DNA of 52,770 bases from Akkermansiaceae bacterium (GTDB lineage Bacteria; Verrucomicrobiota; Verrucomicrobiia; Verrucomicrobiales; Akkermansiaceae): assembly GCA_013001695.1 (NCBI GenBank), contig JABDMC010000301.1, positions 1 to 52,770 of the forward strand, written 5' to 3'. Position 1 is the stretch's first letter. Each line of letters starts with the position of its first letter. Made by a program: the position numbers and the translations under genes. Shown piece after piece: positions 28,254 through 35,565 of this stretch. Under the pieces are notes generated by a model. It searched no databases. It was given only the letters and a program-made list of their open reading frames with translations, and had not been told where the DNA came from.

Positions 28254-31200
28254 TTGGGGCGCGTATTGCCCATTGTGAATCCTGGCACCCTCCTCCTCGT
28301 CCTGCTTGCCCTCCTCGCAACGCCCGTCGCCGGGCAGCAATTCAAGCCCCTCTTCAACGGCAAGGACCTCGCCGGCTGGGAGGGCGACCCGCGCCTCTGG
28401 AAGGTCGAAAACGGGATCCTGGTGGGCGAGACGAACGCCGGCGACAAGAAGGTCAAGGCGAACACCTTCCTCATCTGGAAGGACGGCAAGCTGGCGGACT
28501 TCGACCTCCGCGTGAAGGCCCGCGTCACCGGCGGCAACAATTCCGGCATTCAGTACCGCAGTGCCGCGATCGAGGGGGGCGAGTGGGCCCTGGGCGGCTA
28601 CCAGATGGACATGCACCCGAAGCAGGAGTTCCTCGGGATGCTTTACGAGGAAAAGGGGCGGGGGATCGTCTGCCAGCGGGGCAAGCAGGTGAACCTGCTC
28701 CCGGGCGGAAAGAAACAACCGGCCGGGGACCTGCCCCTGCACAAGGTCGACCTCGCGCAGTGGAACGAGTTTCGCATCGTGGCCCGCGGGACGACGCTGC
28801 GCCACTTCGTGAACGGGAAGAAGGCCGTGCAGGTGATCGACCACGATCCCGAGAAGCGCCGCCTCGAGGGATTGCTCGGGCTGCAGTTGCACGCCGGCGG
28901 GCCGATGAAGCTCGAGGTGAAATCGATCGAGCTGCGCCCGTTCAAGCCGCAGGCGAAGCCCAAGCCGGAGGCCAAACCGAAGCCGGAGGCGAAGGCGAAG
29001 ACGCCCGCCGCGAAGGCCAAGACCACCGCCGCGCCGCCCGCGTGGATCTGGAGCAACGAGCCGCCGCAGGGGAGCGACCGGGCCTGGTTCCGGAAGACCT
29101 TCGTGCTGCCGGAAAACGACAGCGCCGCAAGCCTGACGATGACGTGCGACAACAGCTTCCGCGTCTGGGTGAACGGAACCGAGGTCGGGAAGGGCTCGCG
29201 GTGGGAAAAGCCGCAGACCATGGAGATCCGGCCGCAGGTGGCGGGCGGGAAGAACGTCATCGCGGTCCTCGGGGAGAACGAGGGCAGCGTCGCGGGCTTG
29301 TGCGGACTGCTGGAGGTCACCCTGAAGAGCGGGAAGAAGGTGGCGGTGACGACCGACGGGTCGTGGAAGGTGTCGCGGCGGGAAGCGCCCGGGTGGCAGG
29401 GCGGGGATTTCGACGACCAGGGGTGGAAGGCCGCGAAGGTGATCGGGAAGATGGGGGTCGAACCGTGGGGGACCCTGTTCGGCGCCGGGGAGGGAGGCCA
29501 CCCGCAGGTCGCGCGGGACGAAACCGCCAACTTCAAGGTCGCCACGGGGTTCAAGCTCGAGAAACTCTACGACGTTCCCAAGGCGCAGGGGTCGTGGGTG
29601 TCCATGGCGGTTCTCCCGGACGGCAGCTTCGTGGTGAGCGACCAGTACGGCGGCCTCTACCAGGTGCAGCCGCCGGCCCTCGGCGACGCCGGCGCGGAGA
29701 CGGTGGTCACGCCGCTTCCCCTCGAGATCGGCGGGTCGCACGGGATGCTCTGGCACCGCGGGGCGCTCTACGTGGCGGTCAACGAGAAGATCAAGGTCGC
29801 GAACGGCGTCTACAAGGTGACCGATTCCGACGGTGACGGCCGCCTCGACAAGATCGAGGCCCTGAAGACGATCGCGGGCGGCGGGGAACACGGCCTGCAC
29901 TCCCTCGTCCCGTCGCCGGACGGCGAGTGGATCTACTTCATCTGCGGCAACCACACCAAGGTTCCCGAGATGGATGCCTACTGGATGCCGCAGGTGTGGG
30001 ACGAGGATCACCTCCTGCCGCGCAACCCGGACGGCCGGGGGCACGCCCGCGGGACGATGGCGCCGGGCGGCTGGATCTGCCGGTTCAAGCCCGACAACTC
30101 GCGCTGGGAGCTGGTGAGCAGCGGGTTTCGCAACCCCTTCGACCTCGCCTTCAACGAGCACGGCGACCTCTTCGCCTACGACGCCGACATGGAGTGGGAC
30201 CTCGGGATGCCGTGGTATCGCCCCACGCGCCTCTGCCACGTCATTCCCGGCTCGGAGTGGGGATGGCGCAACGGGACCGGGAAGTGGCCGGTGTACTACC
30301 AGGACAGCCTGCCGCCCGTGGTCGACATCGGGCCGGGCTCGCCGACCGGGGTGGTCTCCGGCCGCGGCGCGAAGTTTCCCGCGAAGTACCAGAAGGCGAT
30401 CTACCTCCTCGACTGGACCTTCGCGACCATCCACGCCATCCACCTCTCGCCGGACGGGACGACCTACACCGGAGCCAAGGAGGAGTTCGTGGCGGGCCCC
30501 GGCCTGCCGCTCACCGACGCCGCGATCGGGAAGGACGGGGCCATGTACTTCATGACCGGCGGCCGCCGCACGAAGTCCGCGATGTGGCGGGTCAGCTACG
30601 TGGGAAGCGAGAGCACCGCCCCGGCCGCCCCGACGGGGAGCGGGTCGCCGCTCGGAGCGCTTGCCGCGAAGCTCAATGAAGCGCCGGTGCCGGAGGTGAT
30701 GAAGGCCCTCGGGTCGGAGGACCGCTTCGAGCGCTTCGTGGCGCGCCTCGAGATCGAGAGCCGCCCCTTGAACGTCGTGAAGGACGCCCTCCGGAAAGCC
30801 GGCGATCCGTGGCAGCTCATCGGCGGCGCCATGGCGGTGGCCCGGCAAGGCGAGCCGAATGACCGCGAGGCGGCGCTCGCGTGGCTCGGGCGTCTGAAGT
30901 GGGACCAGCTTTCCAAGCCCCAGCGTCTCGGGATGCTGCGCGCCTACTCCCTGGTCTTCATCCGGCTCGGCGCCGCCGACGAGGCCGACCGGAAACAGGT
31001 CCTGGCGCAGGTCGATGCCCGCTACCCGGCGCAGGACGACGAGCTCAACGCCGAGCTGTGCCGCATGCTCTGCTACCTGCAGGCCCCCAAGGTGGTGGAT
31101 CGCACCCTGCGCCTCATGGCCGCCCGGAAGGACACGAAGTGGCCGGACTGGGCCGAGCTCGCCACCCGCAACGCCGGCTACGGCAAGGCGGTCCTCAACA

Positions 31201-31949
31201 TGCTGCGCAACTCGCCGCCCGCCCAGGACATCCACTACGCGCTCTGCCTCCGCACCGTCAAGGGTCCGTGGACCGAGGGACAGCGGCGGCAGATCATGGA
31301 GTGGTACGCCATGGCGCGATCCAAGAGCGGCGGCAACAGCTACGGCCCCTTCCTTGACAAGATGCAGAAGGACATGCTCGCCAATGCCACCGACGGGGAG
31401 CGCGCCATGATGGGCGAATGGAAGTTCGCCGGTCCGCCGAGTCCCTTCGAGAACCTGCCCGTTCCGAAGGGCCCCGGACGCAATTGGACCGTCTCGCAAG
31501 TGGCCGCCATCGGCAGCGGCGACCTCTCCGGTGCGGACCGCGAGAACGGCAAGCGCATGTTCCAGGCGACGCTCTGCGCCGCGTGCCACCGGGTGGAAGG
31601 GGAAGGCGGCGGCGCCGGTCCCGATCTCTCCGCGGTCGGCGGCCGCTTCAAGCCGCAGGACATCGCCGAGGCGATCCTCGAGCCGAGCAAGGTCATTTCC
31701 GACCAGTACCACTTCGAGCTGATCGAGAAAAAGGACGGCTCCTCGGTGTGGGGGCGGCCGATCGACGAGAAGAACGGCACCCTCATCGTCGCGGTGAACC
31801 CCTACGACTTCGGCCAGACGGTGGAAGTCTCCCGGGCCGAGATCGCCCGGATGGCGCCCTCCCCGGTTTCCCCGATGCCGGGGGCGCTGATCAACCGTCT
31901 CAACGAAAATGAACTCCGGGATCTCCTGGCGTTTCTTCTGCGGAAGTAG
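28254..31949 (+). CDS. DUF1080 / beta-propeller / cytochrome c protein
   Basis: 1231-residue exported protein. Signal peptide 1-27; domain 1 (about 30-230) DUF1080/3-keto-disaccharide hydrolase-like concanavalin-type sandwich (FKPLFNGKDLAGWEG, GNNSGIQYRS); KPKPEAKPKPEAK linker near 235-265; domain 2 (about 270-430) a beta-sandwich (WIWSNEPPQGSDRAWFRK); domain 3 (about 440-790) a sugar-dehydrogenase-type beta-propeller; helical HEAT-like part (about 795-1070); domain 4, a planctomycete-type heme-binding domain with C1108-A-A-C1111-H1112. A Met in SPMPGAL may be the sixth ligand. A single protein that binds a glycan, oxidises a sugar and passes electrons to heme is plausible. Start may be TTG at 28254 or GTG at 28275. 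It precedes a sugar ABC transporter by 83 bases. Confidence 0.87.
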   Translation: MGRVLPIVNPGTLLLVLLALLATPVAGQQFKPLFNGKDLAGWEGDPRLWKVENGILVGETNAGDKKVKANTFLIWKDGKLADFDLRVKARVTGGNNSGIQYRSAAIEGGEWALGGYQMDMHPKQEFLGMLYEEKGRGIVCQRGKQVNLLPGGKKQPAGDLPLHKVDLAQWNEFRIVARGTTLRHFVNGKKAVQVIDHDPEKRRLEGLLGLQLHAGGPMKLEVKSIELRPFKPQAKPKPEAKPKPEAKAKTPAAKAKTTAAPPAWIWSNEPPQGSDRAWFRKTFVLPENDSAASLTMTCDNSFRVWVNGTEVGKGSRWEKPQTMEIRPQVAGGKNVIAVLGENEGSVAGLCGLLEVTLKSGKKVAVTTDGSWKVSRREAPGWQGGDFDDQGWKAAKVIGKMGVEPWGTLFGAGEGGHPQVARDETANFKVATGFKLEKLYDVPKAQGSWVSMAVLPDGSFVVSDQYGGLYQVQPPALGDAGAETVVTPLPLEIGGSHGMLWHRGALYVAVNEKIKVANGVYKVTDSDGDGRLDKIEALKTIAGGGEHGLHSLVPSPDGEWIYFICGNHTKVPEMDAYWMPQVWDEDHLLPRNPDGRGHARGTMAPGGWICRFKPDNSRWELVSSGFRNPFDLAFNEHGDLFAYDADMEWDLGMPWYRPTRLCHVIPGSEWGWRNGTGKWPVYYQDSLPPVVDIGPGSPTGVVSGRGAKFPAKYQKAIYLLDWTFATIHAIHLSPDGTTYTGAKEEFVAGPGLPLTDAAIGKDGAMYFMTGGRRTKSAMWRVSYVGSESTAPAAPTGSGSPLGALAAKLNEAPVPEVMKALGSEDRFERFVARLEIESRPLNVVKDALRKAGDPWQLIGGAMAVARQGEPNDREAALAWLGRLKWDQLSKPQRLGMLRAYSLVFIRLGAADEADRKQVLAQVDARYPAQDDELNAELCRMLCYLQAPKVVDRTLRLMAARKDTKWPDWAELATRNAGYGKAVLNMLRNSPPAQDIHYALCLRTVKGPWTEGQRRQIMEWYAMARSKSGGNSYGPFLDKMQKDMLANATDGERAMMGEWKFAGPPSPFENLPVPKGPGRNWTVSQVAAIGSGDLSGADRENGKRMFQATLCAACHRVEGEGGGAGPDLSAVGGRFKPQDIAEAILEPSKVISDQYHFELIEKKDGSSVWGRPIDEKNGTLIVAVNPYDFGQTVEVSRAEIARMAPSPVSPMPGALINRLNENELRDLLAFLLRK

Positions 31950-32032
31950 AGAGCGGCGTGACCGGGGCGGCCGGTCACCCTCCGCCACCTTTACGCTCGA
32001 CACCCCTAACAGCCTTCTCTTCCATGGCGGGC

Positions 32033-33049
32033 ATGACGAGTGCAAGACAGATGGGACGGGTTGCCGTGGCGGCCATGGGGACCGTGCTGGCCGGCTGCGG
32101 CGGCGGAAATGAGGCCGAGGTCCAGACCGCCGGGAAGTTCACCATCCTCGGCACCCAGACCGACAATGCCGACCGGTCCATCGCCAAGAAGAACGCCGAG
32201 AACACGCTCGTGAAGTACCCCGACATCGACGCCATGGTCGGTCTCTGGGCCTACAACGCGCCGCAATGTCTCGAGGCCCTGAAGGACGCCGACAAGCTCG
32301 GCAAGGTGAAGGTCTTCTCCTTCGACGAGGATCCCGCCGCGCTCGAGGCCATCAAGGACGGCAGTTGCGAGGGCACCGTGGTGCAGAACCCGTTCCAGTT
32401 CGGTTACCAGGCGATGAAGTACCTCAAGGAGATGGTCGTCGACCAGAAGACGCATGAGCTCCCCGAGGACAAGCAGATCTCGATCCCGGCGCGCACCATC
32501 ACGAAGGAGAACGTGGAGGCCTTCCAGGCGGAACTGGCCGCCAACCTGAAGGCCGGGGAGGAGGGGAAGAACGCCGCCCGGCCGGCGGACGCCCCGAAGT
32601 TCGCCTTCATCACCAATGTCGCCGACCCGTTCTGGAGCCACGCCGAGGCCGGCTGCTACAAGGCCGAGAAGGACTTCGGCATCGTGGCCGATTTCGAAAT
32701 GAACAGCGCCGGCGACGTCGCGGGGCAGAACAAGATCCTCGAGAACATCCTGAACAAGGGCGACTACAAGGGAATCGCCCTCAGCGTCCTCAACCCGGCG
32801 AACCAGACCGGCCTCATCAACGAGACCGCCGCCAAGCTGCCGCTCATCACCCACGACAGCGACGCCCCGGAATCCGACCGCCTCTTCTACCTCGGCACCA
32901 ACAACGTCGAGGCCGGGCGCCGCCTCGGGAAGCTCGTCAAGGAGCGCATGCCGGACGGCGGCAAGATCATGATCTTCGTGGGCAAGATCGACCAGCTCAA
33001 CGCCCAGCAGCGGCGGCAGGGGTTGATCGAGGAGCTCAGCGCGGAATAA
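32033..33049 (+). CDS. Circularly permuted sugar ABC substrate-binding lipoprotein
   Basis: 338 residues with a lipoprotein signal (TVLAGCGGG, Cys22). The rest is a periplasmic sugar-binding protein of the ribose-binding (peripla_BP_4) type, but its halves are swapped. Residues 30-179 (32120-32569) are what is normally the C-terminal half: FTILGTQTDNADR, LVKYPDIDAMVGLWAYN, KVFSFDEDPAALEAIKDG, VVQNPFQFGYQ. Residues 180-338 (32570-33046) are the normal N-terminal half: PKFAFITNVADPFW, NQTGLINETAA, THDSDAPESDRLFYLGTNN, KIMIFVGKIDQLNAQQRRQ, ending IEELSAE. The cut is at a loop between a helix and a strand, and both joins are in frame. It sits correctly upstream of the ATPase (4 bases) and permease genes. 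The start ATG at 32033 was preferred over 32024 and 31958. Confidence 0.85.
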   Translation: MTSARQMGRVAVAAMGTVLAGCGGGNEAEVQTAGKFTILGTQTDNADRSIAKKNAENTLVKYPDIDAMVGLWAYNAPQCLEALKDADKLGKVKVFSFDEDPAALEAIKDGSCEGTVVQNPFQFGYQAMKYLKEMVVDQKTHELPEDKQISIPARTITKENVEAFQAELAANLKAGEEGKNAARPADAPKFAFITNVADPFWSHAEAGCYKAEKDFGIVADFEMNSAGDVAGQNKILENILNKGDYKGIALSVLNPANQTGLINETAAKLPLITHDSDAPESDRLFYLGTNNVEAGRRLGKLVKERMPDGGKIMIFVGKIDQLNAQQRRQGLIEELSAE

Positions 33050-33052
33050 GCC

Positions 33053-34564
33053 GTGCCGTCCGACCCGTCGCCGCCCCCCGTGCTGGAAGCTTGCGGCCTC
33101 AGCAAGCGCTTCGGGGGGGTGCGCGCCCTCACGGCGGTCGACGCCGCCTTCCGGCCCGGCGAGATCGTGGCCGTCATGGGCGAGAACGGCGCCGGGAAGA
33201 GCACCCTCATGAAGTGCCTTGCCGGGGTGCACCAGCCCGACGAGGGGGAGGTCCGCATGGACGGCCGGGTGGCTCCCATTCCGGACGTGCGCGCCGCGGA
33301 ACGCCTCGGCATCGCCTTCATCCACCAGGAACTCAACCTCGCCGAGAACCTCGATGTCGGCGCCAACGTCTTTCTCGGCCGCGAGCCGCGCCTCTTCGGG
33401 CCGTTCTTCAACCGCGGCGAGATCCGGCGCCGGACGCGGGCCCTTCTCGACGAACTCGAGCTGAAGTTCGCGCCGGATCTGCCGGTGCGCGAGCTGTCCA
33501 TCGGCCACCGCCAGATGGTTGAGATCGCGAAGGCCCTTTCCCAGGATGCCCGGGTCCTCATCATGGACGAGCCCACGAGTTCGCTCTCCCTGCACGAGAC
33601 CGGGATCCTCTTCGGTCTCGTCCGGCGCCTGCGCGACCAGGGGATGTGCATCGTCTTCATCTCGCACCGCATGGGCGAGGTCGAGGAGATCGCGGACCGC
33701 GTCATCGTCCTGCGCGACGGGGAAAACAGCGGCGAGTTGCAGAAGGGGGAGATCGATCATGACCGCATCGTCTCGCTCATGGTGGGCCGCAAGCTCGCCG
33801 TCCACCACAAGACGACGCAGAGCGGGGGAGAGGTCCTTCTCGATGTCCGCGACCTCCGGGTGACGCGCTTCCCCGACCTCCCGGTGAGCTTCGAACTGCG
33901 CGCCGGCGAGGTCGTCGGCATGGCGGGACTCGTCGGCGCGGGCCGCACCGAGCTGGCGCGCGCCATCTTCGGCATCGACCGCCCCATCGCCGGCACGGTG
34001 GCCGTCGACGGCCGGCCGATCCGCATCGGGCACCCGCGCGACGCGGTGCGGGCCGGGCTCGCCCTCGTCCCGGAGGACCGCAAGGCCCAGGGCGCCATCC
34101 TGAACCTTTCCCTCCGGGACAACGTCGCCATGGTCGGCCTGAACCGCTGGCAGCGGGCCGGATTCGTGCGGGACGACCTCGTCGACCGCGAGGCCGAGTC
34201 CGCCCGCGAGGCGCTCCGCATCCGCACCCCCGACACCCGCCAGCTCGTCGGGATGCTCTCCGGCGGAAACCAGCAGAAGGTCGTCCTCGCGAAGTGGATG
34301 CCCCTCGGGCCGAAGATCTTCCTGCTCGACGAGCCGACCCGCGGCATCGACGTCGGCTCGAAGGGCGAAATTTACGAGGTCATCGAGCGCATGACCGCCG
34401 ATGGCGCCGCGGTGCTTGCCATCTCGAGCGAACTCGAGGAGATTCTGCGCATCTCGGACCGCGTCCTTGTCATGCACGAGGGGCGCATCGCCGGGGAGGT
34501 CCTCCGCGACAGCGAGGCCTTCTCCGAGAAGGGGATCATGCAGCTTGCCACCGGAGGAGAATGA
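33053..34564 (+). CDS. Sugar ABC transporter double ATPase
   Basis: 503 residues, RbsA/MglA-like, with two nucleotide-binding domains. Domain 1: Walker A GENGAGKST (43-51), signature LSIGHRQMVEIAKAL, Walker B VLIMDEPTS. Domain 2: Walker A-like GLVGAGRTELARAIFG, signature LSGGNQQKVVLAKW, Walker B IFLLDEPTRGIDVGSK. The weaker second Walker A (GAGRTE) is normal for this family. It drives import of a sugar using the permease at 34564-35565 and the permuted binding protein upstream. Start is a GTG three bases after the binding protein's stop codon, and its stop overlaps the permease start. Confidence 0.95.
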   Translation: MPSDPSPPPVLEACGLSKRFGGVRALTAVDAAFRPGEIVAVMGENGAGKSTLMKCLAGVHQPDEGEVRMDGRVAPIPDVRAAERLGIAFIHQELNLAENLDVGANVFLGREPRLFGPFFNRGEIRRRTRALLDELELKFAPDLPVRELSIGHRQMVEIAKALSQDARVLIMDEPTSSLSLHETGILFGLVRRLRDQGMCIVFISHRMGEVEEIADRVIVLRDGENSGELQKGEIDHDRIVSLMVGRKLAVHHKTTQSGGEVLLDVRDLRVTRFPDLPVSFELRAGEVVGMAGLVGAGRTELARAIFGIDRPIAGTVAVDGRPIRIGHPRDAVRAGLALVPEDRKAQGAILNLSLRDNVAMVGLNRWQRAGFVRDDLVDREAESAREALRIRTPDTRQLVGMLSGGNQQKVVLAKWMPLGPKIFLLDEPTRGIDVGSKGEIYEVIERMTADGAAVLAISSELEEILRISDRVLVMHEGRIAGEVLRDSEAFSEKGIMQLATGGE

Positions 34565-34566
34565 TG
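34553..34566 (+). promoter_or_regulatory. Ribosome binding site deciding the permease start
   Basis: GGAGG (34553-34557) precedes two tandem ATG codons at 34561 and 34564. The spacing (six bases) suits 34564, whose A is the last base of the upstream TGA stop, so translation is coupled. Confidence 0.6.
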
Positions 34567-35565
34567 GACCGCGTCAGGAATTTCGTTCGCGACAACCCGA
34601 AGACCCTCGTCATCCTGGGTCTCCTGGTGGCGCTCTTCGGGAGCACCACATTCTTCCAGCCGTCCTTCCGCGACACGGGCAACCTCAGCAGCATCATGCG
34701 GTGGGTCGGCCTCTACGGCATCATCTCCATCGGGGTCGCCTTCGTCATCATCACCGGCGGCATCGACCTCTCGATCGGCTCCCTCATCGCCCTTGCGGGC
34801 GTCATGACGCCCATGCTCCTCGTCAAGGGCGAGCCGTTCTTCAACTCCCCGGTCGGGGTCCCGGTGGCCTTCGCCATCGTCCTCGGCATCTCGCTGCTCA
34901 TCGGCCTCTTCCACGGGATCATGGTCACCAAGCTCAAGATCCAGCCCTTCCTGGTGACGCTTTGCGGCCTCTTCATTTACCGGGGCCTGGCCCGGGCCGC
35001 CGGCAACGACCAGACCCAGGGGTTCGGCGGCCAGTACCAGTGGCTCAAGGACGCCCTCGTGAAGCAGAAGATCTTCGAGATCGTCCCGATGTCCTTCCTC
35101 GTCATGATCGTCATCGGGGTGGTGGCCGCGATCGTCCTCAACAAGACCGTCTTCGGCCGTTACCTCCTCGCCATCGGCCACAACGAGGACGCGGCGCGCT
35201 TCAGCGGCATCAAGACCGACCGCATGAAGATCGCGGCCTACATGATCTGCTCGCTCCTCGGGGGATTCGGCGGCATTCTCTTCGTCCTCGACACGAACGG
35301 CGCCACCCCCTCGTCATTCGGGAACTTCTACGAGCTCTACGCCATCGCCGGGGCGGTGCTCGGCGGCTGCAGCCTCCGCGGCGGCGAGGGGGCCATCTTC
35401 GGCGTCATCTGCGGGGCGGCCCTCGTGCAGGTGTCCGAGAAGGCGGTCTTCTTCCTCGGCGTCGAGGAGGAATGGAAGTTCGCCGTGATCGGCACCTTCA
35501 TCCTCGTGGGCGTGGTGGCCGATGAGCTCTTCCGCCGCTGGAACGAGAAACGCCGCCGCTTGTAG
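34564..35565 (+). CDS. Sugar ABC transporter permease
   Basis: 333 residues, RbsC-like (BPD_transp_2 family), with eight to ten hydrophobic membrane segments. Family marks: FVIITGGIDLSIGSLIAL, the ATPase-contact loop AIGHNEDAARFSGI, and GGCSLRGGEGAIFGV near the C-terminus. It forms the membrane channel for the transporter of the preceding two genes. It overlaps the ATPase gene by one base and is followed after 75 bases by the flavin disulfide reductase gene. Confidence 0.93.
   Translation: MDRVRNFVRDNPKTLVILGLLVALFGSTTFFQPSFRDTGNLSSIMRWVGLYGIISIGVAFVIITGGIDLSIGSLIALAGVMTPMLLVKGEPFFNSPVGVPVAFAIVLGISLLIGLFHGIMVTKLKIQPFLVTLCGLFIYRGLARAAGNDQTQGFGGQYQWLKDALVKQKIFEIVPMSFLVMIVIGVVAAIVLNKTVFGRYLLAIGHNEDAARFSGIKTDRMKIAAYMICSLLGGFGGILFVLDTNGATPSSFGNFYELYAIAGAVLGGCSLRGGEGAIFGVICGAALVQVSEKAVFFLGVEEEWKFAVIGTFILVGVVADELFRRWNEKRRRL

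Follow-up and report, generated by a model that had tools for sequence, protein, structure and literature searches.

A naturally circularly permuted sugar-binding lipoprotein in an intact ABC transporter operon and recurrent changes of chain order in its family

Circular permutation in nature has usually happened once and long ago, and the intermediates have been lost. The only published natural permutant of the type I binding protein fold that was found in the open-access literature is TpMglB-2 (Tp0684) of Treponema pallidum, a sugar-binding lipoprotein encoded in an ABC operon, which was shown to bind glucose and was proposed as "Type Ic / Cluster Bc"; the first three strands are moved to the end of the chain, with a fourth hinge crossing, and its authors raised the possibility that it matters where on the protein the tether sits (PMC4990184). 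The lobes of the fold also tolerate new termini in the engineered RBP-CPN/CPC proteins of T. maritima RbsB, which are designed half-proteins (PMC9815098). DNA methyltransferases are a family with several natural circular permutations and documented duplication intermediates (PMC3320104 and references therein). In addition, the structure of an ABC transporter solute-binding protein from Rhodopirellula baltica SH 1 (PDB code 5er3) has been in the PDB since 2015; no description of the order of its halves, or of a permutation of the type reported here, was found in the open-access literature.

The window (the whole stretch of DNA analyzed, a 52.8-kb contig from an assembly of 399 contigs) carries the gene of a full-length natural permutant, here called P0001, the parts of which are listed in Table 1 together with the neighboring transporter genes. 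Translation gave a single open frame with a lipobox and Cys22, the latter invariant in an alignment of 22 sequences (A2), and an in-frame ATG at 32024 is a possible alternative start. The linker and spacer of the permuted genes are in frame and conserved in length. A preliminary description of this DNA had proposed a lipoprotein signal at the start of the protein, the C-half placed before the N-half, a new link joining the old ends and joins that are all in frame, and each of these features is present. Its placement of the cut between the helix RRQGLIEEL and the strand FTILGT also stands, whereas the boundary it drew between the halves (32569/32570) falls inside the linker. The hexamer GCGGAA, which it had put forward as a trace of recombination, does not serve as one: the window contains 77 copies, where 57 would be expected, and the gene itself has a third one at 32528. 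Tandem repeats were looked for at the P0001 locus in the window and none were found.

Table 1. Features of the P0001 operon (positions in the window) and of the two second-site permutants (positions in their own loci)
Feature	Position	Strand	Basis or remark
Permuted sugar-binding lipoprotein gene (P0001)	32033..33049	+	338 aa, ATG start 32033
Lipoprotein signal peptide, lipobox LAGC, lipidated Cys22	32033..32098	+	sequence
Spacer from Cys22 to first strand, 11 residues	32099..32131	+	sequence, alignment A2
C-half (residues 34-172)	32132..32548	+	homology to second half of type I binding proteins
Linker KAGEEGKNAARPADA, residues 173-187, old C terminus to old N terminus	32549..32593	+	
N-half (residues 188-336)	32594..33040	+	homology to first half of type I binding proteins
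Sugar ABC transporter ATPase, two ABC domains, CUT2 type, intact	33053..34564	+	Pfam ABC_tran, two stretches
Sugar ABC transporter permease, intact	34561..35565	+	Pfam BPD_transp_2
Second-site permutant, Planctomycetota	L147:1261-2985	-	lipoprotein signal
Second-site permutant, Planctomycetota	L148:1198-2505	+	lipoprotein signal

Comparison with ordinary sugar-binding proteins confirmed the permutation. Pfam Peripla_BP_4 matched P0001 in two stretches, well beyond what chance would give (E 9.1e-54, 183 bits with a cut-off of 35), and profile positions 7-148 fall on residues 195-336, behind the C-half, the reverse of the usual family order. Canonical sugar-binding proteins in the PDB likewise align as two pieces in swapped order, residues 11-148 of 2qvc corresponding to P0001 196-333 and residues 158-256 to P0001 39-135. 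Ordinary type I proteins such as T. maritima 3c6q/2h3h and Escherichia coli RbsB share homologous halves, the ligand-site pattern and the ATPase and permease families with P0001, but have the opposite half order and match it in pieces only. In contrast, 5er3 is collinear with P0001 (P0001 31-336 corresponds to residues 25-330 of the construct; phmmer E 1.9e-80), with the swapped order over its full length, the same cut site and 43-44% identity, although it comes from Planctomycetota and from another swapped subclade in the tree. The topology of P0001 is thus already in the PDB, and P0001 alone is a new member of it. TpMglB-2 resembles P0001 in being a naturally permuted, membrane-tethered sugar-binding lipoprotein of the type I fold that is encoded in an ABC operon, but its cut lies in the N-lobe and that of P0001 in the C-lobe; in P0001 the moved block is the whole N-half plus the first part of the C-lobe, which places it outside Type Ic / Cluster Bc, and the TpMglB-2 structure gave a partial match (Z 14.4, 224 residues).

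The AlphaFold2 model of P0001, made with 22 permuted sequences, has a mean pLDDT of 90.9, with nearly all of the mature part above 90 and values below 50 at residues 1-27 only, and matches 5er3 with a Foldseek E of 5.9e-35 and a Z of 37.4 over 299 residues (next best, 14.4). A normal-order relative from Poribacteria (L059) was modeled at pLDDT 86.8 and aligns over its whole length with 3c6q, the glucose/xylose-binding protein of T. maritima (Z 35.3); beyond the N terminus, its lowest confidence is at ∼191-200, within the loop 191-207 that corresponds to the cut site of the permuted proteins. The preliminary description spoke of a ribose-type binding protein, but the closest ordinary fold relatives in the search with L059 are of glucose/xylose type and not strictly of ribose type. 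Candidate ligand-site and core residues are identical in both orders (N195, F200, W201, D275, D277, N291, R327, N75, F97, D98, Q118, and others). P0001 most likely folds as an ordinary two-lobe, hinge-bending type I binding protein with the chain starting in the C-lobe: after export and lipidation the fold would begin in that lobe, with the cut between one of its helices and the following strand, and the 15-residue linker would bridge the old ends. Because the models match known folds and the core residues agree in both orders, the lipid anchor of the permuted protein is predicted to be relocated to the C-lobe with the two-lobe protein otherwise unchanged.

Downstream, the ATPase gene begins 3 bases past the stop codon of the P0001 gene and its end is overlapped by the permease gene. 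Both proteins are intact by their Pfam domains, as had been described. The best NCBIfam models for the ATPase are AraG, XylG, GguA, and RbsA, every one below its cut-off, and the permease is RbsC/YjfF/MglC-like, also below cut-offs. A binding lipoprotein, an ATPase with two ABC domains and a BPD_transp_2 permease are therefore adjacent and co-directional, as in CUT2 importer operons. The sequence and structure comparisons, together with this gene order, support the view that P0001 is a naturally occurring permutant whose sugar ABC operon is intact. We infer that P0001 binds a sugar and acts in transport, in which case it would hand the sugar to the ordinary downstream ATPase and permease. Just upstream, on the same strand (28254-31949), lies a gene for a large protein of 1231 residues, which has domains of two kinds, 3-keto-disaccharide hydrolase (PF06439) and cytochrome c, together with weak glycosyl hydrolase 2 sugar-binding-like matches, and may be connected with sugar use.

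The swapped order is found in many independent genomes, including 13 from species of the same genus and order. In the named collection it occurs in Roseibacillus and other Verrucomicrobiales, Poribacteria, and Planctomycetota, and in one Armatimonadota (Fimbriimonadia) and one Omnitrophota metagenome-assembled genome (MAG); nine further Planctomycetota genomes (L136-L144) have it, some on very long contigs (L141 and L143). The genomes compared are mostly MAGs. Cut site, linker, and order are common to independent genomes of these phyla. The unusual natural permutant proposed in the preliminary description is therefore natural, but it is no one-off oddity, being conserved and recurrent in its family. 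A second copy of the gene, standard or other, which would have spoken for a faulty join, was looked for in the genome of P0001 and is absent, and none of the 16 genomes examined has both orders. To the extent that assemblies can tell, both outcomes named in the preliminary description as refuting it are excluded, the other being support for the ordinary order, against which the recurrence in independent genomes and in 5er3 speaks. Two swapped copies from Roseibacillus SP114 (L031 and L033) were considered as a tandem pair and rejected, as they are strain variants of one swapped gene that overlap at 95%. The permuted proteins of three Planctomycetota loci (L139, L141, and L142) have long C-terminal tails rich in Glu, Pro, and Lys, with a repeated KEEAP in L141.

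For phylogenetic analysis, the halves of every sequence were first put in normal order. The unrooted binding-protein tree comprised 83 sequences, of which 26 are permuted at the P0001-type site, two at a second site, and 55 are normal. On this tree the permuted label needs six changes (bootstrap range 6-7), at least five of which are forced by well-supported branches; the number and direction of switches vary with rooting, but the interleaving itself stands on the unrooted tree. Trees of the N-half and the C-half each place the normal-order L056/L059 beside the permuted L037 and L041, and the normal-order L016 (= L057) beside the permuted L009 (= L042), and the tree of the partner ATPase shows the same nesting. 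Swapped and normal order thus interleave on four trees. Mosaic genes, with halves from different lineages, were considered as a cause of the interleaving; the half trees agree on the nested normal-order genes, which are therefore not mosaics. L009 and L016 were taken from the genomes of two species in one Verrucomicrobiales genus (code g30). In Poribacteria the halves of L037 align with L059 as crossed blocks with DNA identities of 77% and 75%, behind which the ATPase gene is collinear; to L056/L059 each half is 75-77% identical in DNA. We conclude that the gene has switched order several times at one cut point while the transporter otherwise stayed constant.

Rooting with distant relatives of normal order placed the permuted sequences, without exception, in one clade (support 97/98) along with some normal-order ones. 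Two of the five outgroup rows (OUT_L181 and OUT_L182) have a poorly delimited C-half, and little weight is therefore given to the exact position of the root. In all measurable normal-order sequences inside the clade, an insertion of 15-28 residues lies precisely where the permuted proteins are cut, as against about one residue in those outside it, so that loop length is bimodal. Either a long loop came first and rendered the site permissive, predisposing it to change, or a permutation was the initial event and the long loops are scars, former termini that became fused when proteins returned to normal order. Parsimony gives seven changes both for one permutation followed by reversions and for the loop first with several permutations, and nine with reversion forbidden. 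In Poribacteria, the C-terminal end of the normal-order L056, LQKLGEEAKKSAN, matches the beginning of the linker in the permuted L037 (LQQLGETAKNT; 0 of 2000 shuffles did as well), and the end of the L056 loop, SGLPSTAIMA, matches the N-terminal spacer of the permuted form, SSLPDTAITA (equalled in 2 of 2000 shuffles). Such relics are good for L056/L059 only, those of the L057/L042 pair being weak and of low complexity. Because the Poribacteria normal-order genes are nested among swapped genes and retain remnants of the linker and spacer of the swapped form, they have likely returned from the swapped order. Extended to the whole clade, this would mean a single early permutation and then, on several independent occasions, a return to normal order that left ∼18 residues as a scar loop at the cut site, with C-terminal linker remnants in Poribacteria, a history to which we assign an even chance. 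If it is correct, circular permutation is here recurrent, reversible, and near-neutral, and no rare one-way event.

Taken together, these data make it very probable that P0001 is a working permuted CUT2 sugar-binding lipoprotein from a clade in which order switches at the same loop, likely by way of duplication. In permutation by duplication, a described process (PMC3320104), the gene would here first have been duplicated in tandem and the outer halves then lost. Tandem duplications do occur in the family. In a Poribacteria MAG (L060, 5859-6325) a tandem repeat with a 167-base period (2.8 copies, 94% match) lies between the permuted gene and the ATPase gene, its unit covering the final ∼110 bases of that permuted gene plus the adjoining spacer, and Pyrinomonas methylaliphatogenes has two tandem normal-order copies (L068, 4698-6913), the first of which is frame-shifted near its end. 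Among ∼175 loci there was no intact N-C-N-C arrangement or partial intermediate of the permuting type. Alternatively, the halves may have split into separate genes and later fused in either order. This is an accepted model (PMC3320104), and the lobes of T. maritima RbsB can be produced as separately folded proteins (PMC9815098), but the halves occur as separate complete genes in none of the ∼175 loci, and the Poribacteria linker and loop relics and the tandem duplications in the family suit duplication better. Fission and fusion is accordingly judged unlikely, with permutation by duplication the best-fitting route.

A single ancient permutation, inherited vertically and scattered over the trees by tree error or whole-gene horizontal transfer, is less credible still. 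It would fit the occurrence of most swapped genes in large clusters and, in the rooted tree, the confinement of all of them to the one clade that also holds the long-loop normal-order genes. Against this, constraining all permuted sequences to group together cost 286 log-likelihood units and was rejected (p-AU 5e-60), as was a constraint keeping the Poribacteria and Verrucomicrobiota permuted sequences together and free of nested normal-order ones (p-AU 0.001, for a group picked post hoc), and the N-half, C-half, and ATPase trees concur on the nested genes. Moreover, whole-gene transfer cannot turn a normal gene into a swapped one, and order changes on the gene tree are therefore needed regardless. 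That the order of P0001 is an assembly artefact, with two pieces of a normal gene, or the parts of a collapsed tandem array, wrongly joined, is suggested by the many contigs of its assembly and by several related contigs that end in or near the gene, but is refuted at the family level by the recurrence of this order, with its cut and linker, in separate assemblies from several phyla, very long contigs included, by the crystallized homologue 5er3 and by the in-frame, length-conserved linker and spacer, and it is given almost no credence. The same holds for a degenerate gene encoding a non-functional remnant, for which nothing speaks beyond the unusual half order, the frame being intact, the lipobox and candidate ligand-site residues conserved, the predicted fold confident, and the gene the sole copy in an intact operon with its order kept across species.

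What is unusual here is the recurrence, and probable reversibility, of the change at one site, with a second site in addition, in one orthologous operon gene; the recurrent switching on the trees appears to be new, whereas the topology itself is not. DNA methyltransferases, to our knowledge, do not show repeated switching of this apparently reversible kind between closely related orthologous genes of a single operon. Close orthologues in one operon type exist in both orders in Poribacteria and in two species of one Verrucomicrobiales genus, and such natural matched pairs allow direct tests of how a change of chain order comes about, whether it can be undone, and what it costs in function. The membrane tether can evidently move from the N-lobe to the C-lobe with the transporter unchanged, which extends the tether-position idea of the TpMglB-2 authors to proteins of the P0001 type and makes it testable in the natural pairs. 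In practical terms, annotation that assumes collinearity splits or mislabels these importers.

The second-site permutants L147 and L148 have the order last part of the C-half (VKVIAFDE...), N-half, and first part of the C-half, with the cut before the strand VKVIAFDE. In the binding-protein trees they form one supported group within normal-order relatives. Their ATPases (L183 and L184), unlike the binding proteins, do not pair in the ATPase tree (support <95).
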